Positions 35,836 to 48,336 of a stretch of 64,000 nt of DNA are shown here, one piece after another. Source of the DNA: Nitrospirota bacterium (GTDB lineage: Bacteria > Nitrospirota > Thermodesulfovibrionia > Thermodesulfovibrionales > SM23-35); NCBI GenBank assembly GCA_040754395.1, contig JBFMCL010000002.1, forward strand, positions 1 to 64,000, written 5' to 3'. The notes under the pieces are model-generated. The model was not told the origin of the DNA. It saw only the letters and a list, made by a program, of their open reading frames with translations, and ran no database searches. Position 1 is the first letter of the stretch; each line of letters begins with the position of its first letter. Made by a program: the position numbers and the translations under genes.

Positions 35836-37534
35836 TGATTTCTCCTGTAAGTTCTTCTACCAGAAATGGCCTTCCGTCATATCGGTGAATGTGTGATATG
35901 AATTCAAATCCGGTCTCGGCCCTCATGATATGCGCAAACTGCCCTGTGGCGTTGTGTTCGATACATACGGAGACCTTCGCATTCCTCAGCAGTGCAAGGT
36001 AATCGACTGCATCCGTTGAGGGAAGCGGATAAATCTCTGAAAAATGCAGCATTGCGATAGCAGTGTCTTTTTTCAGAAGTTCAACCGCTTCCTTCATTAT
36101 CCCGTACGTGGAGCCCCAGCCGCATATCAGGATTTCCGGCTGTCTGCTTCCGTAAAATACGGGCGGCCCGATCTCCTGCCTGATGAGGGGCATTTTGGCA
36201 AACAGCCTCTTCCGGACCATCCTGTTCCGTGTCTCGGCATCCTCTATGATATGGCCATCCTCATCGTGCTCGTCACTGTCTGCAATTACAAGGTTCTCTG
36301 AATCTCCCGGAACTCCCATCGGGGAAATGCCGCTTTCGGTAAACGCATACCGTTTGTATCCTTCAGTCTTTTTGAACTCGTCTCCCCTGAGGCGATAGTC
36401 ACGGCAAGTGACCCTTTTCAGCTCGATGTCATCAAATGTCCATCCAGTATCCCCGAGATACTGGTCGAAAATCACAATTGCCGGTATCTGGAATTTCTCG
36501 GCCATATCAAAAGCCTTGCCCGTAAGGGAGAATGCCTGCTCAGGTGTGCCGGGCGCAAAGATGACCCGCGGAAATTCACCGTGTCCGGCATGCAGCGCAA
36601 ACAACAGATCCCCCTGTTCCGTCCTTGTCGGCAGCCCTGTGGCAGGTGCAGGCCTTTGCCCGAGAGCGATAACCACCGGGGTTTCGGTCATCCCGGCAAG
36701 GGACAGCCCCTCAGCCATCAGCGCAAACCCTCCTCCTGCTGTCCCTGTCATTGCCCTGACACCCGCAAAAGATGCGCCGATCGCCATGTTGATGGCTGCG
36801 ACCTCATCCTCGGCCTGTTCGACAATAATCCCGTATTCCTTTTCCCTGCCCGCAAGATAATTCATGATGCCAGTCGAAGGCGTCATCGGATATGCCGAAT
36901 AAAACCTGCACCCTGCTGCCAGCGCGCCGAATGCGATACCTTCGATGCCCGACATCATCAGCTTCGGGTTTCCAGCCGGCGCGGGAACGAAAGAACATTT
37001 CGGGCAGTTCTTCATCGCATATTCATGCCCGGACCGGGCTGCATGCAGGTTGGCCTCGATGACGGCTTCGCCTTTTTTCCCGAAGGTATCCCTGATAATG
37101 CCGGAAAGAATTTCCAGATTTAGTCTCAGCATGCCCAGCACTGCCCCGGTTGCAACAGTGTTCGCCATGATCTTGTTCCCATACCCGGCAGCGATATTCA
37201 GAAAAGGAATATCGAGGAAATTCAATTTTTCATGGGCATGTCCGAGATAGGAGGCGTCGTATATCAGAAGGCCGCTTTCAGTCAGCTCATGTGCATGAAG
37301 TGATATGCTTTCCTTATCGAGGGCGACAAGGATGTCGATACCGGTCCTTGACGCTGCGACCGGTTTTTCCGAAATCCTTATCTGAAAGAAGTTATGTCCC
37401 CCCCTTACGCGGGATTCATAATCCTGATGGGTAAAGACATGGTATCCGGAACGCGAAAAAACCCTTGCGAGGGTATCCCCGATGGTCTGGATCCCCTGTC
37501 CTGCCTCGCCACCTATCTTTATCGAATAGTCCAT
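35813..37534 (-). CDS. korA: 2-oxoacid:ferredoxin oxidoreductase fused gamma-alpha subunit
   Basis: A 573-residue fusion. Residues 1-180 are the gamma domain (IGGEAGQGIQTIGDTLAR, RGGHNFFQIR). From about 195 comes the alpha domain with YPMTPSTGIMNYL, the EDEVAAINMAIGASFAGVRAMTGTAGGGFALMAE block, and C-terminal ICGWGSTYG and SEIYPLP. Transcribed with korB. The fused form without a separate ferredoxin-like delta subunit is typical of the KorAB class in which an external ferredoxin is reduced; a 4Fe-4S ferredoxin gene lies 4.6 kb away. Confidence 0.91.
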   Translation of the reverse strand: MDYSIKIGGEAGQGIQTIGDTLARVFSRSGYHVFTHQDYESRVRGGHNFFQIRISEKPVAASRTGIDILVALDKESISLHAHELTESGLLIYDASYLGHAHEKLNFLDIPFLNIAAGYGNKIMANTVATGAVLGMLRLNLEILSGIIRDTFGKKGEAVIEANLHAARSGHEYAMKNCPKCSFVPAPAGNPKLMMSGIEGIAFGALAAGCRFYSAYPMTPSTGIMNYLAGREKEYGIIVEQAEDEVAAINMAIGASFAGVRAMTGTAGGGFALMAEGLSLAGMTETPVVIALGQRPAPATGLPTRTEQGDLLFALHAGHGEFPRVIFAPGTPEQAFSLTGKAFDMAEKFQIPAIVIFDQYLGDTGWTFDDIELKRVTCRDYRLRGDEFKKTEGYKRYAFTESGISPMGVPGDSENLVIADSDEHDEDGHIIEDAETRNRMVRKRLFAKMPLIRQEIGPPVFYGSRQPEILICGWGSTYGIMKEAVELLKKDTAIAMLHFSEIYPLPSTDAVDYLALLRNAKVSVCIEHNATGQFAHIMRAETGFEFISHIHRYDGRPFLVEELTGEISAGTGRL

Positions 37535-37587
37535 ATGAATTATATTGATGATTTACATGAGCGATATCCGCTCTCAATAAGTGTTTA

Positions 37588-38055
37588 TTACACGAAACTT
37601 TTTTTCAGATTGTTCAGCCAGACGATATGGCTTTTTTCCTCCTTAATGATGGCATCGATAACCTCTTTTTCTTTCACCGACTCCCTCAGCGTGTAATAGT
37701 AGAGTAATGTCTCTCTCTCGAAACAGAGAGCGAAATCAATCGCTTCTGCAGCTGTCTTCACATGCTCCAGAGAGGGAAGGCATTTGTCTGTGCCGAGAAA
37801 AAATTCTGAATCCACTATCGCCCTGAGATACTGGGCAACCTCATCCCATCCTTCCGGCGAGGTATCCTGAAGCGTCTTTTCGAGCCCGGAGAAACTTGCC
37901 CCGTGTCTGAGCTCATGTGCAGCAAGGAGGTCGAACAGCTTTTTCAGCTCGCTGTTGTCATGAAACTTCTTCGCCATTTCCGTGTAGAATTCATTCCCCA
38001 GCTTTTCCGCCTGCACAGCCTGTTCAACAATCTCCCTGACCGAAAACGTTACCAT
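37588..38055 (-). CDS. Ferritin-like diiron domain protein
   Basis: A 155-residue four-helix-bundle protein. The Glu/His iron-ligand pattern recurs in AVQAEKLGNEFY, AAHELRHGASF, FERETLLYYYTL and IIKEEKSHIVWL, that is four ExxH/ExxY-type helices as in erythrin-like ferritins. No rubredoxin domain. Three such proteins occur in this window (also 42696 and 48717). Likely role in iron handling or peroxide removal; it stands near korAB, with oxygen-sensitive enzymes. Confidence 0.78.
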   Translation of the reverse strand: MVTFSVREIVEQAVQAEKLGNEFYTEMAKKFHDNSELKKLFDLLAAHELRHGASFSGLEKTLQDTSPEGWDEVAQYLRAIVDSEFFLGTDKCLPSLEHVKTAAEAIDFALCFERETLLYYYTLRESVKEKEVIDAIIKEEKSHIVWLNNLKKSFV

Positions 38056-38217
38056 ATCCCCTCCGTGTTGAAATATTTTGTTCTTTGCAGCATACTTGTT
38101 CCCCTTCTGTGAAATAGCATCGCCGCAACGTACCGAACTGATGCCCGTGACACGGAAATCACGGACAACGCCGAATGGCGCGATAGGTCACAGATGAAGC
38201 AATAACTTACTTAAAGT

Positions 38218-38634
38218 TTAGATGATATTCCTGATATCGTCAATATTTATGATTCTTTTCTGGAGGAGATTCACTAACACAATGAAGCCGCCGCATGGAA
38301 GGGGTAGCGCTTTTTTTGCTGATTTGCTCCCTCCGGCTATCCGGTGAAGAGGGGGAGAAACGGGATTGGGTGCACCGTGCTCTTCGAGCCTGCATGTATC
38401 CGCAAAATCGCATCCATCCTCATAGAAAGGACATGAGGTACAGAGATACCGGAAAAGAATTTCCTGTGTCTTCGCGGCAGGTACACCGTCTGCCTTATCA
38501 AACGGTATGTTCAGGCCTTGTCCGTGTAATTTTTCTATTACCAGGAACCCCAAACAGGCAAGGTCTTCCTTTTCTGCAGACTTGTAATATCGACAGAAGG
38601 TGCCGCAAAGCTTCTTCCTTATTTCCTCGCTCAA
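38218..38634 (-). CDS. Cys-rich protein of unknown function
   Basis: A 138-residue protein with about eight cysteines: C9, C14 (KLCGTFCRYY), a lone C near 28, then CTSCPFYEDGCDFADTC near 66-82, and PCGGFIVL close to the end. The spacing suggests a metal or Fe-S cluster in two half-sites. The C-terminal block (LPLPCGGFIVLVNLLQK..INIDDIR) looks like a conserved end piece. I do not recognise a named family. It stands alone between the ferritin-like gene and the hybrid kinase on the same strand. Confidence 0.7.
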   Translation of the reverse strand: MSEEIRKKLCGTFCRYYKSAEKEDLACLGFLVIEKLHGQGLNIPFDKADGVPAAKTQEILFRYLCTSCPFYEDGCDFADTCRLEEHGAPNPVSPPLHRIAGGSKSAKKALPLPCGGFIVLVNLLQKRIINIDDIRNII

Positions 38635-38675
38635 TGCCTTCTTTCCGATGCCTTCGGGATTTTCTGTATACCCGT

Positions 38676-40646
38676 TTATTTTACGTATTCCTCTGTCCGC
38701 CTCCCGGTTGACTGTTTCTTCACGGGAATTCTTGCTGATATCCGGGTACCTTTCCCTGGTGCTGAATCAATCTTCAGATATCCGTTGAGAAGGGTAACCC
38801 GTTCGTGCATCCATTTTATTCCTGCAGTGTTTCCCGATTCCCTTACCGCCCTGTGATCAAATCCCTTTCCGTCGTCTTCTATCTTAATTTCGAGCCTTTC
38901 CGGACTGCAGGTAACACACACCTTCACATCATCTGCACCTGCATGGCGCGACACGTTCGTCAGGGCCTCCTGCACGATGCGGTATGCCGCTGTTTCTATC
39001 TCCGGCCCGAAGCGCATATCCAGGCCGCTATGGGTAAATTGCACCTTTATATTTGTCCGTAAGCGGTAACGCTCACAATACCACTGCAACGCTGGCAGCA
39101 GTCCCTGGTCATCCAGCATCGACGGGCGCAGATCAAACGACATATTCCGCACCTTGAATATCAGCTCCTGCACAAGAGCAAGTGCATCGTGCATTTTTTG
39201 CGGCATCTCTCCTGCAGGAAGTGCAGCAAACCCTTCAAGATACATTCTGAGTCCGTTGAGTGATTGCCCGATCTCATCATGCAGTTCCTGCGCGATTGAG
39301 CGGCGTTCATCTTCCTGTACTTCTATCAGGCGACCGGAAAGGGCCTGCAGACGTTCGGCGTATTGTATGAGGGTCTTTTCATCCAGTTTCCGTTCCGTGA
39401 TATCGCGGATTATTCCAACCGCTTCCCATTTCCCCTTCACCTGTATTACCGAAATGGACGCCTCTATCGGGAACAGTGTTCCGTCTTTTCTGACAGCAAG
39501 GAACTCAAGGGTTTTCCCCACAACAGGTCCCTTTCCGGTGGACCGGAATACCCTGAATCCATCCTTGTAGGCCTGGTAATACTCCTGCGGCACGAGAAGC
39601 ATATGAAGTTCCTTTCCAAGCGCCTCGTTATTTGTGTATCCGAATATTTTTTCTGCTGCCGGATTCCAATAGGAAATTTTTCCCTCATCGTTCATAAGGA
39701 TCACTGCATCGGTTGCAGTTGCGGTTATTCCACGGAATTTCTCCTCGTTTGCCTTCAGGGCATCTTCAACCCTTTTCCTTTCAAGGATCTCTCCTTCCAG
39801 TTCTTCGACTACGATCTCCAGCTGTCTGGTACGATCACTGACCCTTTTCTCCAGTTCTTCATTTAATATCCTGATGGATTCCTCAGCTTTTCTGCGCGCT
39901 GTCATGTCGCTTATGACTGCAAAGAAACCGATAAAATTTCCCTTATCGTCATGCATCGGCCTTGGAGAAATGACGGTATGGATTTTCTGTCCGTCTTTCT
40001 TCACACAGGTAAGATCATAGGTAACAAATATGCCTTCACCGTGAGCATCGAGATGTTCCCTGAATTTCTCATGTTCTGCGAGATCAATACAATCAGTCGC
40101 ATGCCGCCCGAGCAGCTCTTCTCTGGGAAAACCGAGCATTTTACAGATGCTGTTGTTCACAAAAGTTATGATGCCGTTCGTGTCCATAACACAGAGGCCC
40201 TCATTCATTGTCTCCACCAGCATCTGGTAACGCTCCATGCTTCTCCTGAGCGCCATTTCGGCATGCTTCAGGCGGATTATCGCCTGAATGCGGGCGAGAA
40301 ATTCATGCGGTGATACCGGACGAACGATATACCCGTCAGCTCCGATTTCGAGGCCCCGAATCTGGTTTTCTGAAGACACCATCATGCCTGAAATCAGAAC
40401 GACAAAGGTATCCCGGAGGTCGGGGTCTTCCTTGATCTGTTTGCAGAGATCGTATCCGCTGACATCCGGAAGCATTATATCCAGCAGGATGAGGTCCGGA
40501 TGCGCCATTCTGGCTATCCGCAACCCTTCTTCCCCCGTAGCTGCCGTAAGCACCTGATGGCCGGAGAACTGCAGGATACTTGAGTTCAGGAGAAGGAGAT
40601 CAGGGTCGTCATCAATACAGAGGACCGTTGCCTTTGCATTTGTCAT
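38676..40646 (-). CDS. Receiver-PAS-PAS histidine kinase (HisKA_3/NarX-like)
   Basis: A 656-residue hybrid kinase with an N-terminal receiver (about 8-125; IDDDPD, phospho-acceptor in LLDIMLP, the conserved Lys replaced by Arg in IVRPVSP). Two PAS domains (about 140-260 and 310-430) are separated by a coiled coil (LNEELEKRVSDRTRQL), then HisKA_3 with phospho-His in SIAQELHDEIGQSLNGLR. The ATPase domain has TAAYRIVQEALTNVSRHAGA and EDDGKGF. This is the NarX/DegS class that phosphorylates LuxR-type regulators; no such regulator is adjacent. Confidence 0.88.
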   Translation of the reverse strand: MTNAKATVLCIDDDPDLLLLNSSILQFSGHQVLTAATGEEGLRIARMAHPDLILLDIMLPDVSGYDLCKQIKEDPDLRDTFVVLISGMMVSSENQIRGLEIGADGYIVRPVSPHEFLARIQAIIRLKHAEMALRRSMERYQMLVETMNEGLCVMDTNGIITFVNNSICKMLGFPREELLGRHATDCIDLAEHEKFREHLDAHGEGIFVTYDLTCVKKDGQKIHTVISPRPMHDDKGNFIGFFAVISDMTARRKAEESIRILNEELEKRVSDRTRQLEIVVEELEGEILERKRVEDALKANEEKFRGITATATDAVILMNDEGKISYWNPAAEKIFGYTNNEALGKELHMLLVPQEYYQAYKDGFRVFRSTGKGPVVGKTLEFLAVRKDGTLFPIEASISVIQVKGKWEAVGIIRDITERKLDEKTLIQYAERLQALSGRLIEVQEDERRSIAQELHDEIGQSLNGLRMYLEGFAALPAGEMPQKMHDALALVQELIFKVRNMSFDLRPSMLDDQGLLPALQWYCERYRLRTNIKVQFTHSGLDMRFGPEIETAAYRIVQEALTNVSRHAGADDVKVCVTCSPERLEIKIEDDGKGFDHRAVRESGNTAGIKWMHERVTLLNGYLKIDSAPGKGTRISARIPVKKQSTGRRTEEYVK

Positions 40647-40751
40647 AAAATCTCCAATTGTTCTGGGAAGAAACGGATTTCCTACAGTATATCACAAATA
40701 CATTTTCGGAGTGATGCACAACAGGCTTCTGTGATACGGTACAATAAGAAC

Positions 40752-41912
40752 ATGAAATATTTTCTCACAGAGGATTGCGTGCTGAAATGGCTTGAAAATC
40801 CGTCTGTCTATCACCTCGGACATGATGACCTGTATGAGCTTGATGACCTTTCCTTCGCGTTCCTCAGGAAATGCGCTTCAGACGGCGGCTGCAGCGCGGA
40901 ACAGACTGAATTTATCCGCTACTGTCTGCATGAAGGGATCCTGACCAAAGACCGGTTGACGACGATGAAACATCCTGCTTTGATAAAATCTCCGGTTCCG
41001 TCACTCCGTTATCTGGAACTGCAGATTACAGACAGATGCAATCTCAGGTGCCGGCATTGCTATATCGGAGATACAAAGGTGAGCGTCAGGAGGGGAAAAT
41101 ACCGGAAAAAGGAACTCACGATTACACAGATAAAAAAAATCCTGAAAGAATTTGAGGAAATGCAGGGACTGCGGGTCCTTGTCTCCGGCGGAGAGCCTTT
41201 GATTCACAGCCGGTTCGGAATGATTAATGACATGCTCCCCGGATTTTCCGTACGCAAAGTCCTTTTCACAAACGGCCTGCTGCTGACCCGTGCAACGCTC
41301 GAAACACTGCATGTGGATGAGATTCAGGTGAGCATCGACGGTCTTCAGCACGCACATGATTCACTAAGGGGGCAGGGAAGTTACAAAGCAGCGCTCAAAG
41401 CCGTCTACATGGCTCTCGATTCAGGGTTCGAGGTTTCTGTCTCGACAATGGTCCATCCCGGAAATCTGAACGATTTCGACTCACTGGAGACATTATTCAA
41501 AAAAATAGGAATAAGGGACTGGACAGTTGATGTGCCGTGTGTTACCGGGAGACTCAAAGAGCACGGACAGTTTGAAATAAGTCCGGAAGAGGGCGGGAAA
41601 TACCTTGGGTACGGGTTTGGTGAAGGGCTTCATTCCGGGTCTTCAGGATTTGGATGCGGTCTCCATCTTATGGCGGTAATGGCCGACGGAAATGCTGCAA
41701 AATGCACCTTCTATGCGGAAAGCCCTGTCGGCAACATACAGGACGGGCTCAGAAAATGCTGGCAGAGGATACCGCCGGTAAGGCTTGCCGACCTGAAATG
41801 CGACTGCGGTCATCTCGAATTATGCCGGGGAGGATGCAGATACAGGGCAGCTCTTCTTGGTGATCCGTACGGCAGGGACCTTTACAAGTGCAAAATGTAT
41901 GATATAATGTAA
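40752..41912 (+). CDS. Radical SAM/SPASM peptide-modifying enzyme with PqqD-like N-terminal domain
   Basis: A 386-residue enzyme. Residues about 1-75 form a PqqD-like/RiPP-recognition-like domain (YFLTEDCVLKWLENPS..., DDLSFAFLRKC). The radical SAM core starts at CNLRCRHCY with VSGGEPLIHS and VSIDGLQHAHDSLRG. The C-terminal SPASM region has CGLHLMAVMADGNAAKC and CDCGHLELCRGGCRYRA for auxiliary Fe-S clusters. This architecture is typical of maturases that make thioether or other crosslinks on ribosomal peptides. A 20-codon Cys-rich gene follows 52 bases downstream and is the obvious substrate candidate. The start at 40752 is the first ATG preceding the domain. Confidence 0.85.
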   Translation: MKYFLTEDCVLKWLENPSVYHLGHDDLYELDDLSFAFLRKCASDGGCSAEQTEFIRYCLHEGILTKDRLTTMKHPALIKSPVPSLRYLELQITDRCNLRCRHCYIGDTKVSVRRGKYRKKELTITQIKKILKEFEEMQGLRVLVSGGEPLIHSRFGMINDMLPGFSVRKVLFTNGLLLTRATLETLHVDEIQVSIDGLQHAHDSLRGQGSYKAALKAVYMALDSGFEVSVSTMVHPGNLNDFDSLETLFKKIGIRDWTVDVPCVTGRLKEHGQFEISPEEGGKYLGYGFGEGLHSGSSGFGCGLHLMAVMADGNAAKCTFYAESPVGNIQDGLRKCWQRIPPVRLADLKCDCGHLELCRGGCRYRAALLGDPYGRDLYKCKMYDIM

Positions 41913-41964
41913 AAATAAGCCTGGCATGAAGTCAGGATACTCCTATGAAAGGGGGCAGGAAGTC

Positions 41965-42027
41965 ATGACAATAAAAAAGGTATCAAAGAGGGTTGCGTTG
42001 ACCTGCAAATGCAAGAGCTCCTGCTAG
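41965..42027 (+). CDS. 20-residue Cys-rich peptide, candidate RiPP precursor
   Basis: MTIKKVSKRVALTCKCKSSC, preceded by GGGGGCAGGAAG five to six bases before the ATG, an excellent ribosome site for so short a frame. A basic leader-like part (1-12) is followed by TCKCKSSC, three Cys in C-x-C-x3-C spacing at the very end. It lies directly after a radical SAM/SPASM gene with an RRE-like domain and is ended by a strong hairpin. That matches thioether-peptide (sactipeptide-like) or related RiPP operons. That it is translated and modified is inference. Confidence 0.65.
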   Translation: MTIKKVSKRVALTCKCKSSC

Positions 42028-42052
42028 AATCTTCTGAATTAGTGGGACATAT

Positions 42053-42108
42053 GTAAAAGGACAAAAGAAAGGCGGGAAAAATATCCCGCCTTTCTTTTGT
42101 CCTTTTAC
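42053..42108. terminator. Bidirectional terminator hairpin, 25-bp perfect stem
   Basis: 42053-42077 is an exact 25-base reverse complement of 42084-42108 with a six-base loop AAAATA. The GC-rich tip GGCGGGA/TCCCGCC is followed by a T-rich arm on both strands, so it can stop transcription from the peptide gene (+) and from the ferredoxin gene (-). A perfect 25-bp stem is longer than usual for a terminator. Confidence 0.85.
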
Positions 42109-42109
42109 G

Positions 42110-42295
42110 TTACTGAATGATAATCGCCTGCACAGGACAAATGTCCGCAGCTTCCTGGCAGTTGCAGGTATCGCACTTGTCAGGCCCTATCACATGTGCC
42201 TTGCCATCGTCGCCCACCTTGAACACCTCCGGGCAGATTTCTTCACATGAGGCACATCCCTCGCATAAGTCTTCATCAACTACCGGTTTTGGCAT
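42110..42295 (-). CDS. 4Fe-4S ferredoxin
   Basis: A 61-residue ferredoxin: C11-x2-C14-x2-C17-x3-C21-P (LCEGCASCEEICP) and a second part CDTCNCQEAADICPVQAI. Spacing suggests one canonical cluster plus extra Cys residues that may hold a disulfide or a second site. It is a likely electron acceptor for KorAB or a donor to the radical SAM enzymes nearby. Ribosome site GGAGGGAATG precedes the ATG. Confidence 0.88.
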   Translation of the reverse strand: MPKPVVDEDLCEGCASCEEICPEVFKVGDDGKAHVIGPDKCDTCNCQEAADICPVQAIIIQ

Positions 42296-42393
42296 TTCAT
42301 TCCCTCCGTATATCGAATTTTGCTGGCATTAATCCTTTCTTCCTGTCTTAGCCTTCAGAAAGAAATCATTCCCCGGGTCAAGTGCACGCATAG

Positions 42394-42654
42394 TTATTTT
42401 TTCAGCTCAAAGTTCCTGATAAACTGCCCCACCTGAACACCGAGATAGACACATTTGATATTGTTCATACACTCATCAGCGTCTTTCTTTTCGAGATGTG
42501 TGGTAAGCTGATGTTCGCCCTTCTTCATCCTGACAATATAGGCATTCTTTCCTTCGTCGAATTCGAGACTTACCGTGATGCCGTGTTGAAAAATCTCCGG
42601 ATACATCTCAAGAATTTTGTCCTGCAGTGCATCCTTTGTATATCCCATCCGCAT
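42394..42654 (-). CDS. Small conserved-looking protein of unknown function
   Basis: An 86-residue acidic-basic protein (MRMGYTKDALQDKILEMYPEI...). It has a predicted alpha-beta pattern and a single Cys pair (ADECMNNIKCVYLG near residues 60-72), with charged Lys/Glu runs. GGAGGG precedes the start; an ATG two codons later is a second candidate. It is 99 bases after the ferredoxin gene's start and just downstream of the ferritin-like gene, all on the minus strand, so the three may be co-transcribed. I do not recognise the family. Confidence 0.62.
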   Translation of the reverse strand: MRMGYTKDALQDKILEMYPEIFQHGITVSLEFDEGKNAYIVRMKKGEHQLTTHLEKKDADECMNNIKCVYLGVQVGQFIRNFELKK

Positions 42655-42695
42655 GCCCTCCTTTTGGGAAAATCACCGGGAACAGGTCAGCAGGA

Positions 42696-43196
42696 TTACG
42701 CCCACGGTGTTCCGCCGTCAACCATGCTGTGTTCCTCCCACATATACCAGTTTCCGGTGTCCGACATGAAATTATAGGTATTTGCAAAAATCGCATAATG
42801 CTGTTCTTCCTCTTTAATAAGCCTCTCAAAAAGGGCCTTCTCTTTCTGCTGCTGTGTTTCTTTCTCGATATGCCTGTAGAATTCGATGCCTTCCTTCTCC
42901 ATCTGCATGGCAATTTTAAATGCCTCAAGCTCGTCCTGAGTTGCTTCGACCCTGTTCATCATCTGATCCTTCATGGATTCGAATATTGTCTTTATATTCT
43001 TCATCGGGCTGACCTGCTGGATTGTTACATCTGCCTCCTTGAATATCTGGGCAAGCATCTTCAGATGCCTCTTTTCATCCTCAGTAACGCTCAAAAACAT
43101 TTTTTTGCCGACAGGATGACTGGTTTTTTCAGCAGCTTCCGAATAAAAGTCTATTGCGTCTTTTTCCATTTTAATCGCTATTTCAATCGCATTCAT
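42696..43196 (-). CDS. Rubrerythrin/ferritin-like diiron protein
   Basis: A 166-residue diiron four-helix protein with two repeated halves: MEKDAIDFYSEAAEKT...EDEKRHLKML and MEKEGIEFYRHIEKET...KEEEQHYAIF. These give the Glu/ExxH ligands of the ferritin/rubrerythrin-like fold. It lacks a rubredoxin domain. Typical of anaerobes for peroxide reduction or iron storage. GGAGGATAAG precedes the ATG. Upstream is the divergent/co-directional nitroreductase gene. Confidence 0.83.
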   Translation of the reverse strand: MNAIEIAIKMEKDAIDFYSEAAEKTSHPVGKKMFLSVTEDEKRHLKMLAQIFKEADVTIQQVSPMKNIKTIFESMKDQMMNRVEATQDELEAFKIAMQMEKEGIEFYRHIEKETQQQKEKALFERLIKEEEQHYAIFANTYNFMSDTGNWYMWEEHSMVDGGTPWA

Positions 43197-43281
43197 CTTA
43201 TCCTCCCTTTCTGCATGCTCTTGTTTTTCAGTTTAGTCATTTTGCCAAGGATTATCAACACCCCGTGAAAAGTTTGCATCG

Positions 43282-43911
43282 TCAGTACGTCTCGAAGCTG
43301 ACAAATTCATCGATATTCCTCCTGAATGCCCTTGGAAGAAGGGGTACCCCTGACTTCAGGTATCCCACAGCTATCAGCATCGGGATAATCTTGTCTGCTG
43401 GTACGCCGAATTCCTTCTTAATGCAGTCTTCCTCAAACCCGTCCATGGGATGGGTATCAAGACCCAGTCCCTTTGCAGCCAGCATCAGATTCATTGCGAA
43501 CAGTGCGGTATTTTTTGCCGCAAATATCTTGCGCTTCAGGCTTTCTTCGGTGCCCTGGAGGTTCCTTGCAATGGTGGCATATGTCTCTCTTTTCTCGGGC
43601 GTCAGAAATCCCAGTTCTATCCAGCTGTCGAGTACCCGGTCCAGATTTTCTTCCAGTCCTTTCGGATCAGCAATCATGATGAGCACCGCTGATGCCTCCT
43701 CAACCTTTGGCTGGTTGAATGCGCATCTCCTTAAGGTCTTCTTTTTTTCCGGATCACGCACCACAATTACCCTCCATGGCTGGAGATTGAATGAGGATGG
43801 AGAAAGGTTTCCAATTTCAAGCAGTTCCCTGAGGGTTCTGTCGGAAATCTCCTTGCCGGACTCGAAATAATTTATAGAGCGCCGCTCTTTTATCGTCTGG
43901 ATTACGTCCAT
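43282..43911 (-). CDS. Nitroreductase family protein
   Basis: A 209-residue FMN enzyme with ERRSINYFESGKEI, LSPSSFNLQPWRVIVV (FMN site), AKNTALFAMNLMLAAKGLGLDTHPMDGF and a C-terminal MLIAVGYLK. This is the larger NfnB-like subtype, distinct from the 171-residue relative at 23312. Substrate unknown. It begins 88 bases before the start of the divergent second radical SAM gene. Confidence 0.87.
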   Translation of the reverse strand: MDVIQTIKERRSINYFESGKEISDRTLRELLEIGNLSPSSFNLQPWRVIVVRDPEKKKTLRRCAFNQPKVEEASAVLIMIADPKGLEENLDRVLDSWIELGFLTPEKRETYATIARNLQGTEESLKRKIFAAKNTALFAMNLMLAAKGLGLDTHPMDGFEEDCIKKEFGVPADKIIPMLIAVGYLKSGVPLLPRAFRRNIDEFVSFETY

Positions 43912-43998
43912 GGCAAACTCCTTTCCGGATAGCTTATATATGAATTTTTATAGTTTTATATTAATATATTCAGAAATAAAGTCAAGTCTACTCAACGC

Positions 43999-44982
43999 AT
44001 GAATAACGTGTCCTTCATACAGGTCTATCCGACTCTGCGATGCAATCAGCGCTGCGGGTTTTGCTTCAACCAGACGATTCCCGCGATGTCGTCGTACAGG
44101 GATATGTCCGCGGATGAAGCGTTTCTGCTGGCTGATTTCCTTGTAAAAAACGGTTTCCGGGAAGTTGATGTCCTTGGTGGTGAACCGATGCTTCTGCCCT
44201 GGATGAAGGATTTCATCGCTCACATAGCTCACAAAGGTCTGATCATCAATGTCAGCACAAATGGCAGCATGCCGGAAAAAATCCGGGAGCTCGCGGATAT
44301 TACGTCTGATCGTATGAATATCGGCTTCTCCCTGCACGGTCTCCGTGAAACACATAACGCCTTAACGGGCTCTGACAATTATGCGCAGATACTCAGAGGG
44401 ATAGAAATCATGCTCCGTGCAGAAAAAAACCCGATCGTGAAAAGCGCTCTCACCAGGGAAAATACCGACGAAATCCCTGATCTTGCCGTGTTTCTGAAAA
44501 ACCTCGGGGTAACGCGGTACTACGTACTTCACGAAGATACCATCGGCAGAAGAAATGCATCCGGATTCTCATTTCCTGAATTCTGGAAGTGTTACCTCAG
44601 AATAAAAAACGATCTGGCGGGGATTCTTGACATCGGCTTTGTTGCTGCCTCTGCATTCTACAAGTCAGGAGGCAGCAGGGGTATCCGATGTGATGCAGGA
44701 GTGGAAAAAATGGCGTTACTGCCGGACGGTTCGGCATTCCCGTGCAACCTCTTTTTCGGTTTCGATGAGTTCCGCCTGGGGAATATTTTCAAAGATGAAT
44801 TTGTAGAGATCGCGGGGAGTCCGGTGATTGAAAATTTGCGCAACTTTCAGGTAAATCAGTGCCGGGTCATTTCCTGCCGTCATCACGCGACCTGCACAGG
44901 AGGCTGTCCCGCGCACAGCTACTTTTTTCACGGTTCTGTTGACGCTCCGGATCCCCGATGCAGTCTTGAATATCAGACATAG
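43999..44982 (+). CDS. Radical SAM/SPASM-type protein, second locus
   Basis: A 327-residue enzyme. The Fe-S triad is CNQRCGFC near residue 14 (VYPTLRCNQRCGFCFNQT), with DVLGGEPMLLPWM and FSLHGLRETHNALTGS. The C-terminal part has CDAGVEKMALLPDGSAFPC, CRVISCRHHATCTGGCP and a final RCS, giving several auxiliary cluster Cys. It lacks the PqqD-like N-terminal domain of the 40752 enzyme. No peptide gene is visible beside it. Start at 43999 without a clear ribosome site. It may act on the same or another peptide. Confidence 0.8.
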   Translation: MNNVSFIQVYPTLRCNQRCGFCFNQTIPAMSSYRDMSADEAFLLADFLVKNGFREVDVLGGEPMLLPWMKDFIAHIAHKGLIINVSTNGSMPEKIRELADITSDRMNIGFSLHGLRETHNALTGSDNYAQILRGIEIMLRAEKNPIVKSALTRENTDEIPDLAVFLKNLGVTRYYVLHEDTIGRRNASGFSFPEFWKCYLRIKNDLAGILDIGFVAASAFYKSGGSRGIRCDAGVEKMALLPDGSAFPCNLFFGFDEFRLGNIFKDEFVEIAGSPVIENLRNFQVNQCRVISCRHHATCTGGCPAHSYFFHGSVDAPDPRCSLEYQT

Positions 44983-45014
44983 ATACACAGTGGTGGAGTG
45001 TACGGATACCCCTT

Positions 45015-45914
45015 CTATCTCTGATGCTCTTCGCCCTTTATGACAAGCCAGTAGACAAAGCCAATGACCAGGATCGATGCGATCAGATAGACCATCATCT
45101 CTGACTGATCATGCCTGAGTGTCGCAATCATCGTCTCCCTGATCACTGCAACGAGTGCAACGCTTATAAATACGCTGATACGGAATTTCCCGCCTTTGAG
45201 GTGGGATATCTCCGTGTTCATCAGTTCGATCATCACCCAAATGATCAGCAGGGAACCGAGTGAAGAGATTATCCCCTTTTCCAGGTCTCCGGAGAACAGT
45301 TGTTTGACATCGGTGATAAAGAGTGCTATCGCCCCAAGTGTAAGACCTATTAATGCCAGGACAAGCACAAGATTCGCGCTCTGGAGAAATTTCTCAGAAA
45401 AATCGACGAGGGCGCTTTTGATGCGGTAAAGGGAAGAGTAATTCCTGATTTCTTCCTCAATATAGGATGATGTCATGACATCAAGGTTAATATCGAGAAT
45501 CTTCTCAAAGGCAAGGACATTTGCGATAACCTCTTCTTCCGGCTCTCTCTGGCTATAAAGGATATTCACACACAGGGTTCTGATGATGTTCACAGCCCTG
45601 TTCAGATAATGTGCGTCTACCGCCCTTTTCACATGCACAATCCCTATCTTGATGAGTCTTTCATAGTACGTGTTGTCATACTTTCCCTCAAACATGGCAA
45701 GGAACCATTTCTGCTGGGCTGCCAGCAAATGTGCCCTGCTGGATTCCTCATCCAGCAGTCTTGCGCCGATTTTTGTGCTCATAATATAGGCACTGAGAGC
45801 GCCTGATATTTCTTCCACATGAACCTCCAGAACAGGTTTGAGTCTCATAAGTCTCTGCTCATCATCAGCGGTAAATTTATAATTATCCTTAATTTCCCTG
45901 AATGATCTCATCAT
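45015..45914 (-). CDS. Protoglobin domain fused to PsiE-type membrane domain
   Basis: A 299-residue protein. Residues about 1-160 are a globin-coupled-sensor/protoglobin domain (YKFTADDEQRLMRLKPVL..., heme-binding His in IGIVHVKRAVDAHYL). Residues about 165-299 hold four hydrophobic helices in the order of PsiE (NLVLVLALIGLTLGAIALF, SSLGSLLIIWVMIELM, FRISVFISVALVAVIRETM, MMVYLIASILVIGFVYW). It would sense O2, NO or CO through heme and pass the signal to the membrane part, whose function is unknown in all bacteria. Convergent with the second radical SAM gene. Confidence 0.85.
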   Translation of the reverse strand: MMRSFREIKDNYKFTADDEQRLMRLKPVLEVHVEEISGALSAYIMSTKIGARLLDEESSRAHLLAAQQKWFLAMFEGKYDNTYYERLIKIGIVHVKRAVDAHYLNRAVNIIRTLCVNILYSQREPEEEVIANVLAFEKILDINLDVMTSSYIEEEIRNYSSLYRIKSALVDFSEKFLQSANLVLVLALIGLTLGAIALFITDVKQLFSGDLEKGIISSLGSLLIIWVMIELMNTEISHLKGGKFRISVFISVALVAVIRETMIATLRHDQSEMMVYLIASILVIGFVYWLVIKGEEHQR

Positions 45915-46142
45915 ATTTCAATCGCATACTATCGCGCATACATTTTTTATACTACTGTCATTCGCAGATATTCCAGCATGATGTCTGCTTTTCATCATTA
46001 CGCCATCGGATATAAAAATCATTATAGCAAATATTTATTTCCATTACCTGTAAACATATTACACTGCGGGATAAACAGAACACATTTTGTTGTTTGGTCA
46101 TTTGGCGTGTCACGAAAGGTTTACAATAACGCAACAAAATGG

Positions 46143-46170
46143 AAAAATTATTTATTCGACAATAATTTTT
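46143..46170. promoter_or_regulatory. AT-rich inverted repeat, upstream element of the fur-like gene
   Basis: AAAAATTATT (46143-46152) and AATAATTTTT (46161-46170) form an exact 10-bp inverted repeat with an 8-base spacer. It lies just upstream of a second palindrome and may be a binding site for the Fur/PerR protein encoded next. Confidence 0.45.
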
Positions 46171-46179
46171 ATTTTATGA

Positions 46180-46198
46180 TATTATTTATTAAATAATA
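46180..46198. promoter_or_regulatory. Palindromic Fur/PerR-type box before the fur-like gene
   Basis: TATTATTTATTAAATAATA is a perfect 19-bp palindrome about a central T. The 7-1-7 core TTATTTA-T-TAAATAA resembles PerR boxes in layout and AT content. It is 26 bases before the start codon, so it fits autoregulation. Confidence 0.55.
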
Positions 46199-46224
46199 AC
46201 TATTAAAATTTGGAAGATAAGTTT

Positions 46225-46623
46225 ATGGTTCAGGAGAAACGGTTCAAGCGAACTCCCCAGAGACTGGCGATACTTGATTTGCTGAGGGAAAAGACGGCAC
46301 ATCCTTCGGCAGAAGATATATACAAGGATATCCGAAAAAGATTCCCGACAATGTCGCTTGCTACTGTCTATAATACGCTTGAGACGCTTATGAAACAGGG
46401 ATCAATTCGCGCGCTGACGATAGATGCGCAGAAAAAACGTTTCGATCCTAATCCGAAACCACACCATCATCTTATCTGTACAGGATGTAAAAGGATTATC
46501 GATATCCATATCGAATATCAGCTCCAGGTTCCCGAAGACAAGAAGATGGGGTTTCATGTCATCGGTAATCATATCGAATTTTACGGTGTCTGCCCCGACT
46601 GCAGAAAACAGGGTACTGAATAA
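46225..46623 (+). CDS. Fur-family regulator, probably PerR-like
   Basis: A 132-residue metalloregulator. The winged helix has RFKRTPQRLAILDLLR and TMSLATVYNTLETLMKQGSIR. The dimer domain has HHHLICTGCKRIID and CPDCRK, the two CxxC of a structural zinc site, and PKPHHH for the regulatory metal. GGAAGA precedes the ATG at 46225. The neighbours (desulforedoxin, flavodiiron protein, rubrerythrin) are oxygen-defence genes, so peroxide sensing is likelier than iron uptake control. Two palindromes lie in front of the gene. Confidence 0.87.
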   Translation: MVQEKRFKRTPQRLAILDLLREKTAHPSAEDIYKDIRKRFPTMSLATVYNTLETLMKQGSIRALTIDAQKKRFDPNPKPHHHLICTGCKRIIDIHIEYQLQVPEDKKMGFHVIGNHIEFYGVCPDCRKQGTE

Positions 46624-46773
46624 CCATGGAGCATAGAAAATATGGAAATCTTACAGAGCGTTTTAACTGTTCTTTGGGGTTGGCACATTTGGGAGGAGGC
46701 TATTTCCTGGTCCCTATACCCCCTTCCTGAATGACGTGAATTCAACTATAATCGAAAGAGAGGTCTACCAGTT

Positions 46774-46908
46774 ATGACAAAAGTCGGACAGAAATACAAA
46801 TGCAACATCTGCGGGAACGAGGTAGTGGTGACGAATGCGGGTTCCGGTGAACTCGTCTGCTGCGGACAGCCAATGGACGTCATCGGTGAAGGGTTTGTCT
46901 GTAAATAG
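46774..46908 (+). CDS. Desulforedoxin/desulfoferrodoxin N-terminal domain protein
   Basis: A 44-residue iron protein with the desulforedoxin motif: CNIC near residue 10 and VCCGQPM near 28-33 (the four Cys ligands of a Fe(S-Cys)4 centre). The desulfoferrodoxin superoxide-reductase domain is missing, so this is a free-standing Dx unit, perhaps an electron carrier to the diiron proteins downstream. Sits between the Fur-like gene and the flavodiiron gene, same strand. Confidence 0.8.
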   Translation: MTKVGQKYKCNICGNEVVVTNAGSGELVCCGQPMDVIGEGFVCK

Positions 46909-47048
46909 CAATCCGGACAATCATTCTCTTTCACGAATTTTCCTGCAGTGCGGTTGAAGCTTCCTTCAATCCTGCATTGAGGGGAATACAACTGCGATAA
47001 TGAAAAAAATATTGGGGGCTTTACAAAAGCTCAGCGAGAGGAGGCCAT

Positions 47049-48266
47049 ATGCAGGCGACTGAGATTAAACCCGGCATTTTCTGGGTAGGAGTAATCGATT
47101 GGGCGGTCAGGGATTTTCATGGCTATGTCACACCGAATGGCACTACGTACAACAACTATCTGATCATGGACGAACAGATAACCCTTTGCGATACCGTGAA
47201 GCATGCATTCTCAGAGATTACCATAGAGAACATCAGAAGTCTTACCGACCCGTCCATGATAAAAAATATCATAATCAACCATATCGAAAACGATCATGTA
47301 TCGAGCATCGGCGATATCATGCACCTCACACCTAATGCAACGATATATATCACCGACAAGGGGAAAAAGGGGCTCGAAAGGTTTTTCGACGCCTCGAAGT
47401 GGAATATCAAAGTTGTAAAAACCGGGGATACGCTGAATATCGGGAAGAGGAATCTGCTCTTTCTCGAGACGCCGATGCTCCACTGGCCTGATTCAATGAT
47501 GACCTATGTCAGGGAAGATAATCTCCTTATCAGCCAGGATGCGTTCGGACAGCATTATGCATCTGCAGCCCGGTTCGACGACGAGTTCATCACCTGTCAC
47601 TCCATGAACGAACTTGAGGATGCGGTGAAGGACTATTATGCCAATATCCTGATGCCCTTCGGGACACTGATCAAGACAAAAATCGCTGAGGTGCAGAAAC
47701 TCGGACTCGACATCGACATGATAGCTCCTGACCACGGTATTATCTGGAGAAAAGACCCCGCGAAAATCATGAACATGTATCTTGATATGGCAAACGGGAA
47801 GGCGGATTTGAGGGTTGTAATCATTTATGATACGATGTGGCACAGTACGGAGCAGATGACTGTCCCCTTAATGCAGGGGATTAAGGATGAGGGGATCGAC
47901 GTTAAGATCGTCAAACTCAGGGCAAGCCCTGTGAGTTTCGCGGTCAAGGAATTCTGGAAGGCCAGGGCATGCCTGATCGGCTCCCCTACCCTTAATAACT
48001 CGCTGTTCCCCACAGTAGCTGAATTCCTTACCTATCTGAAAGGCCTGAGGCCGAAAAATCGTATGGCAGCAGCCTTTGGGAGTTACGGATGGGGAGGAGG
48101 CGCGTTAAAAGACATATATGAAGCGATAAAGACGATGGGACTCGAACCTGTGGAGCCCGGGGTGCAGGTTGTCTATAAGCCCTCTGCCGATGATCATAAA
48201 AAATGCTATGAATTCGGGAGGGAATTTGCACAGAAGGTGAAGGCATTCCATGCGAATTTCGTATAA
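47049..48266 (+). CDS. fprA: Flavodiiron protein (A-type flavoprotein)
   Basis: A 405-residue NO/O2 reductase. The beta-lactamase-like diiron domain has NHIENDHVSS (H-x-E-x-D-H), LHWPDSM, SQDAFGQH and APDHGIIWR, which supply the ligands. The flavodoxin domain (about 255-400) has IIYDTMWHSTEQM for FMN and GSYGWGGGALKD. Reduces oxygen to water or NO to N2O with electrons from rubredoxin-like partners; the desulforedoxin gene just upstream may be that partner. Ribosome site GAGAGGAGG is close to the ATG. Confidence 0.93.
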   Translation: MQATEIKPGIFWVGVIDWAVRDFHGYVTPNGTTYNNYLIMDEQITLCDTVKHAFSEITIENIRSLTDPSMIKNIIINHIENDHVSSIGDIMHLTPNATIYITDKGKKGLERFFDASKWNIKVVKTGDTLNIGKRNLLFLETPMLHWPDSMMTYVREDNLLISQDAFGQHYASAARFDDEFITCHSMNELEDAVKDYYANILMPFGTLIKTKIAEVQKLGLDIDMIAPDHGIIWRKDPAKIMNMYLDMANGKADLRVVIIYDTMWHSTEQMTVPLMQGIKDEGIDVKIVKLRASPVSFAVKEFWKARACLIGSPTLNNSLFPTVAEFLTYLKGLRPKNRMAAAFGSYGWGGGALKDIYEAIKTMGLEPVEPGVQVVYKPSADDHKKCYEFGREFAQKVKAFHANFV

Positions 48267-48336
48267 GGGACTAAGGAAAAAGGGGTTCCCGGAACTGGGA
48301 ACTTCATGAGAAATCTGCCGGATTGAGGAGGGGAAT

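Follow-up and report, generated by a model that had tools for sequence, protein, structure and literature searches.

The window, i.e., the whole stretch of 64,000 nucleotides analyzed from a Nitrospirota contig, contains a gene for a radical SAM enzyme which is followed after 52 bp by a small gene for a 20-residue peptide with three Cys residues. An earlier note, made from the DNA sequence alone, had described this arrangement as a minimal RiPP operon, and the peptide, its ribosome site with a purine-rich Shine-Dalgarno sequence and the strong terminator that it named were all recovered (Table 1). The arrangement of enzyme, peptide, ribosome site and terminator is real and far beyond chance. 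The note's statement that all elements lie within 1.4 kb holds for these four, but not for a further, co-inherited gene located outside this region.

Table 1. Features of the locus and their positions in the window.
Feature	Position	Strand	Remark
Third component, 138 aa, undescribed family	38218..38634	-	Profile and co-occurrence
Putative RRE-rSAM-SPASM-like peptide maturase, 386 aa	40752..41912	+	ATG 40752, stop 41910-41912
Predicted N-terminal RRE/PqqD-like winged-helix region, approximately residues 1-69	40752..40958	+	AF2 model, SuiB alignment
Probable peptide-gene promoter, TTTACA-16-TATAAT, TG-extended	41881..41908	+	Within the last codons of the enzyme gene
Predicted leader hairpin 1, CCTGGC-ATGAA-GTCAGG, ANGAA pentaloop	41920..41936	+	
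Predicted leader hairpin 2, CTCCT-ATGAA-AGGGG, ANGAA loop	41940..41954	+	3' arm within the Shine-Dalgarno purine run
Putative precursor peptide MTIKKVSKRVALTCKCKSSC, 20 aa	41965..42027	+	Conserved in relatives
Predicted Rho-independent terminator, 20-bp stem	42058..42103	+	

The AlphaFold2 model of the enzyme (pLDDT 92.5, pTM 0.90) supports its assignment to the broad class of RRE-containing radical SAM RiPP maturases. The best fold neighbors in the PDB were SkfB, SuiB and CteB, which are RiPP maturases each possessing an RRE (PMC8326336), and the alignments with SkfB (Z 25.5) and SuiB (Z 25, residues 2-386) were near full-length. The radical SAM core was verified by a Pfam Radical_SAM match (1.3e-21) and by the CxxxCxxC motif, whose residues C96, C100 and C103 were invariant in 61 homologs. 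The PqqD-like domain, likewise claimed earlier, is borne out by the predicted fold: the N-terminal region was modeled with a pLDDT >90 across most of its length and has a winged-helix-like topology, with strands at residues 2-5, 9-13, 17-21 and 26-29 and helices at residues 32-41 and 53-60, and it aligned with SuiB and SkfB. A Pfam sequence match to an RRE/PqqD domain was not obtained for the enzyme, and this feature is thus assigned by predicted fold. With respect to the SPASM clusters, the claim stood in part. All seven auxiliary-cluster residues (C302, C318, C350, C352, C358, C362, and C380) were invariant in the 61 homologs, but the last motif, C350-x1-C352-x5-C358-x3-C362, i.e., C-x1-C-x5-C-x3-C, has one residue fewer than the SPASM motif as published, C-x2-C-x5-C-x3-C (PMC3023750), and Pfam SPASM (PF13186) did not match the enzyme. 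We therefore named the domain SPASM-like. None of the NCBIfam equivalogs came near its own cut-off with the window's enzyme (best match 94 bits), and the known NCBIfam maturase families were rejected as its identity, since all scored far below cut-off. In one test genome, the enzyme ortholog scored approximately 650 bits and the nearest paralogs ≤119 bits, which leaves a clean gap.

The earlier note had proposed a search of relatives for short frames behind homologous enzymes. In seven of eight public Nitrospirota contigs with an enzyme homolog, a frame of the same length was found just downstream, and all seven frames end with TCKCK[SG]SC-stop. The strict pattern TCKCKxxC-stop was present in 92 of 296 Nitrospirota genomes compared to none for a reversed-pattern control, and relaxed patterns detected four further genomes (G128, G107, G022, G188), so that the peptide occurs in 96/296. 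The 98 distinct genes code for 19 or 20 residues with the consensus M-[TKV]-I-[KR]-K-[VI]-[ST]-[KR]-[KR]-x-[AS]-x-T-C-K-C-K-[SG]-S-C-stop. The C-x-C-x3-C tail expected by the note is thus conserved, and a missing frame or an unconserved peptide, which it had named as grounds against its proposal, was not what the 98 conserved genes revealed. The residues fixed by the search pattern were C, K and C, the K/H behind them, and the final C with its stop codon; free of it, T13 (95/98) and S19 (98/98) were conserved, as were I3 (97/98), K5 (96/98) and V6 of the leader, for which the choice of start codon favored a length of 12 residues. Close pairs of peptide genes differed by 838 synonymous and 445 non-synonymous codon changes, a ratio of 1.88 versus a neutral expectation of 0.25. 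Together with the sequence conservation, this argues that the peptide is almost certainly translated and selected, and that it is under strong purifying selection. The gene is nearly always present in a single copy per genome, and NCBIfam gave no match for the peptide. The sole change of the second core Lys was seen at one locus (L153, G188:C34), whose tail reads CKCHSSC.

The peptide gene looks like a short autonomous transcription unit with a predicted RNA of about 190 nt. The promoter-like site matches the consensus at 11 of 12 positions, and TATAAT sequences in relatives are most frequent between -80 and -61 relative to the start of the peptide. A terminator-like stem follows the peptide in 51 of 98 relatives compared to 4 of 294 shuffles. 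The term operon, as used in the note, therefore fits the gene order but not the promoter-like site of the peptide's own in the 3' end of the enzyme gene. Such a separate unit would explain the ability of the peptide gene to leave the enzyme.

The two leader hairpins vary in stem sequence while the pentaloop stays ANGAA. Among the 152 ANGAA sites located upstream of the peptide, 94 have flanks that pair in a stem of ≥4 bp, compared to about five with shuffled arms. In 30 aligned leaders, two-sided changes were present in all four pairs of helix 1 and slid controls collapsed; since these leaders had been preselected for hairpins, the shuffled-arm count serves as the unbiased test. When run on the window's own genome, a covariance model matched positions 41920-41958 of the window with 5.4e-11 and, in ten genomes including ones outside its training, almost solely peptide leaders. 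No Rfam family matched the twin-hairpin leader; Rfam 'miRNA' matches were rejected as its identity, as they fall on the terminator stem. Control by CsrA/RsmA was also rejected, because the loops are nearly all ANGAA and not ANGGA and no CsrA was detected in the window's own genome. At the Thermodesulfovibrio-type loci L075-L080, three consecutive ANGAA hairpins were found and the peptide gene precedes a row of genes for a TPR protein, IspE and Prs. A leader-like twin-hairpin match in genome G067 (L165:1501-1539, minus strand, E 5e-5) is located upstream of a different, signal-peptide-like gene. The position of the short ORF between structured RNA elements and, in several families, upstream of other genes might suggest a regulatory leader ORF instead of a precursor. 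We consider this extremely unlikely in view of the strong selection at the amino-acid level and the invariant C-terminus; furthermore, a terminator often follows and the downstream genes vary between families.

Conservation of the system extends over much of the phylum Nitrospirota, including several classes. The enzyme was present in 98 of 296 genomes, in 94 of them together with the peptide. Of the four genomes with the enzyme and without the peptide (G012, G033, G038, G292), the first two have the enzyme at the edge of a contig, and G038 has a completeness of 65%. Two nearly complete genomes, G104 and G282, possess the peptide without the enzyme; these orphan genes (L083 and L090) can be read as a result of recent loss or as substrates of another maturase. 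In 63 of the 94 genomes, the peptide core follows the enzyme match at a distance of 69-251 bp; in the other 31 it is located elsewhere. The third component, a protein with seven conserved Cys residues, was detected by its profile in 95/296 genomes (92 with the enzyme, 89 with the peptide), and all three components in 88/296. Pairwise co-occurrence gave Fisher p values from 1e-59 to 1e-69, in which the shared ancestry of the genomes causes independence to be overstated. To control for lifestyle and ancestry, the enzyme was compared with dsrA, and the two mismatched in about 60 genomes (our own count from two lists), compared to six for enzyme and peptide and nine for enzyme and 7-Cys protein. 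A specific tie to sulfate reduction was rejected, since many of the 133/296 genomes with dsrA lack the system; by our own count, 13 enzyme-positive genomes lack dsrA.

Partial loss of the three-component system was evident in G211, G104 and G120: G104 keeps peptide and 7-Cys protein without the enzyme, and G120 and G211 have the 7-Cys protein alone; by comparison with G286, the loss in G211 took place within a genus. G282 carries the peptide alone. All three components are jointly absent from some members of otherwise positive genera (G134 versus G148), and in G047, which belongs to a Thermodesulfovibrio-like group, the three genes are found at three separate loci. At one locus (L114, G284:C74), stops and frame changes break the enzyme and 7-Cys genes, and the adjacent peptide gene is intact.

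The 7-Cys family comprises proteins of approximately 100-140 aa. Its member in the window has a PCGG motif and the conserved residues C10, C14, C27, C65, C68, C75 and C114, of which C65 is nearly invariant and the other six are invariant in the family. The gene lies divergent to and <1 kb from the enzyme gene in 32 genomes; in the window the distance is 2.1 kb, with a histidine kinase gene inserted between. No meaningful match to the protein was obtained in Pfam, NCBIfam or the PDB, and its moderately confident model (pLDDT 80) gave no Foldseek match in the PDB. In G124, G258 and G184 (L027, L036, L038) the protein has a fused C-terminal domain that appears cupin-like by eye. Invariant Cys residues like those of this protein are typical of metal or cluster binding, and the three invariant Cys residues of the peptide show a cluster-ligand-like spacing. 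The peptide itself might be a metal or Fe-S ligand or a metallochaperone with the 7-Cys protein as partner, in which case the enzyme would act elsewhere or merely trim the peptide. This appears unlikely, since conservation extends to I3, K5 and V6 of the leader, as docking to an RRE predicts, the fold of the enzyme is that of a RiPP maturase, and the tightest co-occurring pair is enzyme and peptide.

Transporter or protease genes were not among the recurrent gene clusters near the loci of relatives, which extends to these the lack of such genes that the earlier note had observed. In an all-phyla contig scan of low sensitivity, eight loci were found, all from Nitrospirota. Apart from the 7-Cys profile, searches of viral contigs gave no relative, and plasmids contained no full-length match but partial paralogs only; an origin from a mobile element or phage was rejected on these grounds. 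The nearest folds are those of sactipeptide and ranthipeptide maturases, which could indicate a secreted antimicrobial or signaling RiPP of the sactibiotic or ranthipeptide type. We judge this very unlikely, as the gene occurs almost always once per genome with a core that is near-invariant across classes, a conserved transporter, protease or immunity gene is missing, 31 of the loci are unlinked, and plasmids and viral contigs lack the system.

Gene contexts vary by family and include KorAB/ferredoxin/rubrerythrin, TPR-IspE-Prs, Tat, and CutA-HisD; a general functional clue from neighbors was rejected because these contexts are family-specific. In the window, positions 36000-48300 code for two rubrerythrin-like proteins, a ferredoxin and nitroreductase-like, Fur/PerR-like and flavodiiron-like proteins, in part assigned by eye, and these redox-stress genes adjoin genes for a 2-oxoacid:ferredoxin oxidoreductase. 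This neighborhood is compatible with redox work but carries little weight, as the neighbors in other families differ. A second radical SAM/SPASM protein with a Pfam SPASM match is encoded at 43999-44979 (plus strand); its conservation close to the system is limited to the family of the window.

Considering these results, we regard it as quite probable that enzyme and peptide form a RiPP-type maturase/precursor pair whose intracellular product is used alongside the 7-Cys protein. The genomic comparisons strongly suggest that the peptide is the substrate of the enzyme. RRE-guided radical SAM maturases bind the leader of their precursor through the RRE and act on its core (PMC7470986; PMC8326336). 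By analogy, the 20-residue precursor would be made from a separate short mRNA, its basic leader (I-K-K-V-S-K) would dock on the RRE-like domain, and the near-invariant C-terminal core TCKCKxSC would then be the site of modification by the radical SAM/SPASM-like enzyme. Since the core contains Cys residues and the fold neighbors form thioethers, a Cys crosslink is the first guess: the most likely modification would link at least one Cys sulfur to a neighboring residue. We assign weak to moderate confidence to this chemistry; alternatively, the enzyme may form a C-C link or carry out a different oxidation. The occurrence of about one copy per genome, the near-invariant core, the lack of conserved transport and protease genes and the absence from plasmids and viral contigs point to a constant internal role, and we have moderate confidence in a cofactor-like use of the product within the cell. 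The product would not be exported but used with the 7-Cys protein, which might bind it, finish it, or serve as a redox or metal partner, and the pair of ANGAA hairpins at the ribosome site might tune peptide synthesis; our confidence in these roles of the 7-Cys protein and the hairpins is weak.

In favor of such a maturase/precursor pair we counted the co-occurrence that is kept even when the genes are dispersed (31 unlinked peptide loci), the RiPP-maturase fold neighbors, the clean gap between ortholog and paralogs and the purifying selection. Against it we counted the non-canonical SPASM spacing with no Pfam SPASM match, the ability of a three-Cys C-x-C-x3-C peptide to bind metal unmodified, and the components found without the enzyme in G104, G282, G120 and G211. 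More tentatively, and with somewhat less than an even chance of being correct, the last eight residues of the peptide, TCKCKxSC, could give rise to an undescribed cofactor or redox carrier which anaerobic Nitrospirota use with the new 7-Cys family and whose synthesis is under the control of a new twin-hairpin RNA element, perhaps sensing the product or a dedicated protein.

The conservation points to a small modified peptide which serves a constant function within these anaerobic cells and not to an antibiotic. Co-inherited in several Nitrospirota classes, the system would represent an unassigned core pathway of environmentally important, often sulfur-cycling anaerobes. In the literature, whose coverage for Nitrospirota and RiPPs was incomplete, we found neither the core sequence nor Nitrospirota paired with such a system. 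Mycofactocin and similar peptide-derived cofactors came to light through like genomic signatures. The system could be reconstituted from two or three genes, making its product and the user of the product directly testable, and the peptide would be one of the shortest RRE-guided substrates on offer.

Among known systems, PQQ biosynthesis (PqqA/PqqD/PqqE) shares with the Nitrospirota system a very short precursor, an RRE and a SPASM-type radical SAM enzyme, but the Nitrospirota peptide lacks a Glu-Tyr core and the RRE is fused to the enzyme; PqqE matched the enzyme at the level of the general superfamily, below cut-off. The sactipeptide maturase SkfB and the Lys-Trp cyclase SuiB resemble the enzyme in whole-chain fold (Z ~25), whereas identity is about 17%, the Nitrospirota core has no Trp and conserved export genes are missing. 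The mycofactocin system (MftA/B/C) was predicted from co-distribution, an invariant C-terminus and the lack of a transporter or immunity gene (PMC3023750), and it likewise combines a short conserved precursor with an invariant C-terminus and a radical SAM maturase and has no transporter or immunity gene. However, its core is CGVY compared to TCKCKxSC, the RRE of the Nitrospirota system is fused to the enzyme, the enzyme reached 78 bits with the mycofactocin maturase model TIGR03962 (cut-off 265), and none of the downstream genes of mycofactocin was noticed in the vicinity. The SCIFF/ranthipeptide system of Clostridia (CteA-CteB) also couples a taxon-wide small Cys-rich peptide to an RRE-rSAM-SPASM maturase, CteB is a top fold neighbor of the Nitrospirota enzyme, and the wide occurrence of SCIFF peptides argues against an antimicrobial role (PMC8326336). 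In contrast to the three Cys in 19-20 residues found here, SCIFF peptides have six Cys in approximately 45 residues and occur in a different phylum, and the Nitrospirota system has a separate 7-Cys partner; the SCIFF maturase model TIGR03974 (cut-off 425 bits) was absent from the enzyme's best 25 NCBIfam matches. Most likely, the Nitrospirota system resembles mycofactocin and SCIFF in manner and belongs to neither.
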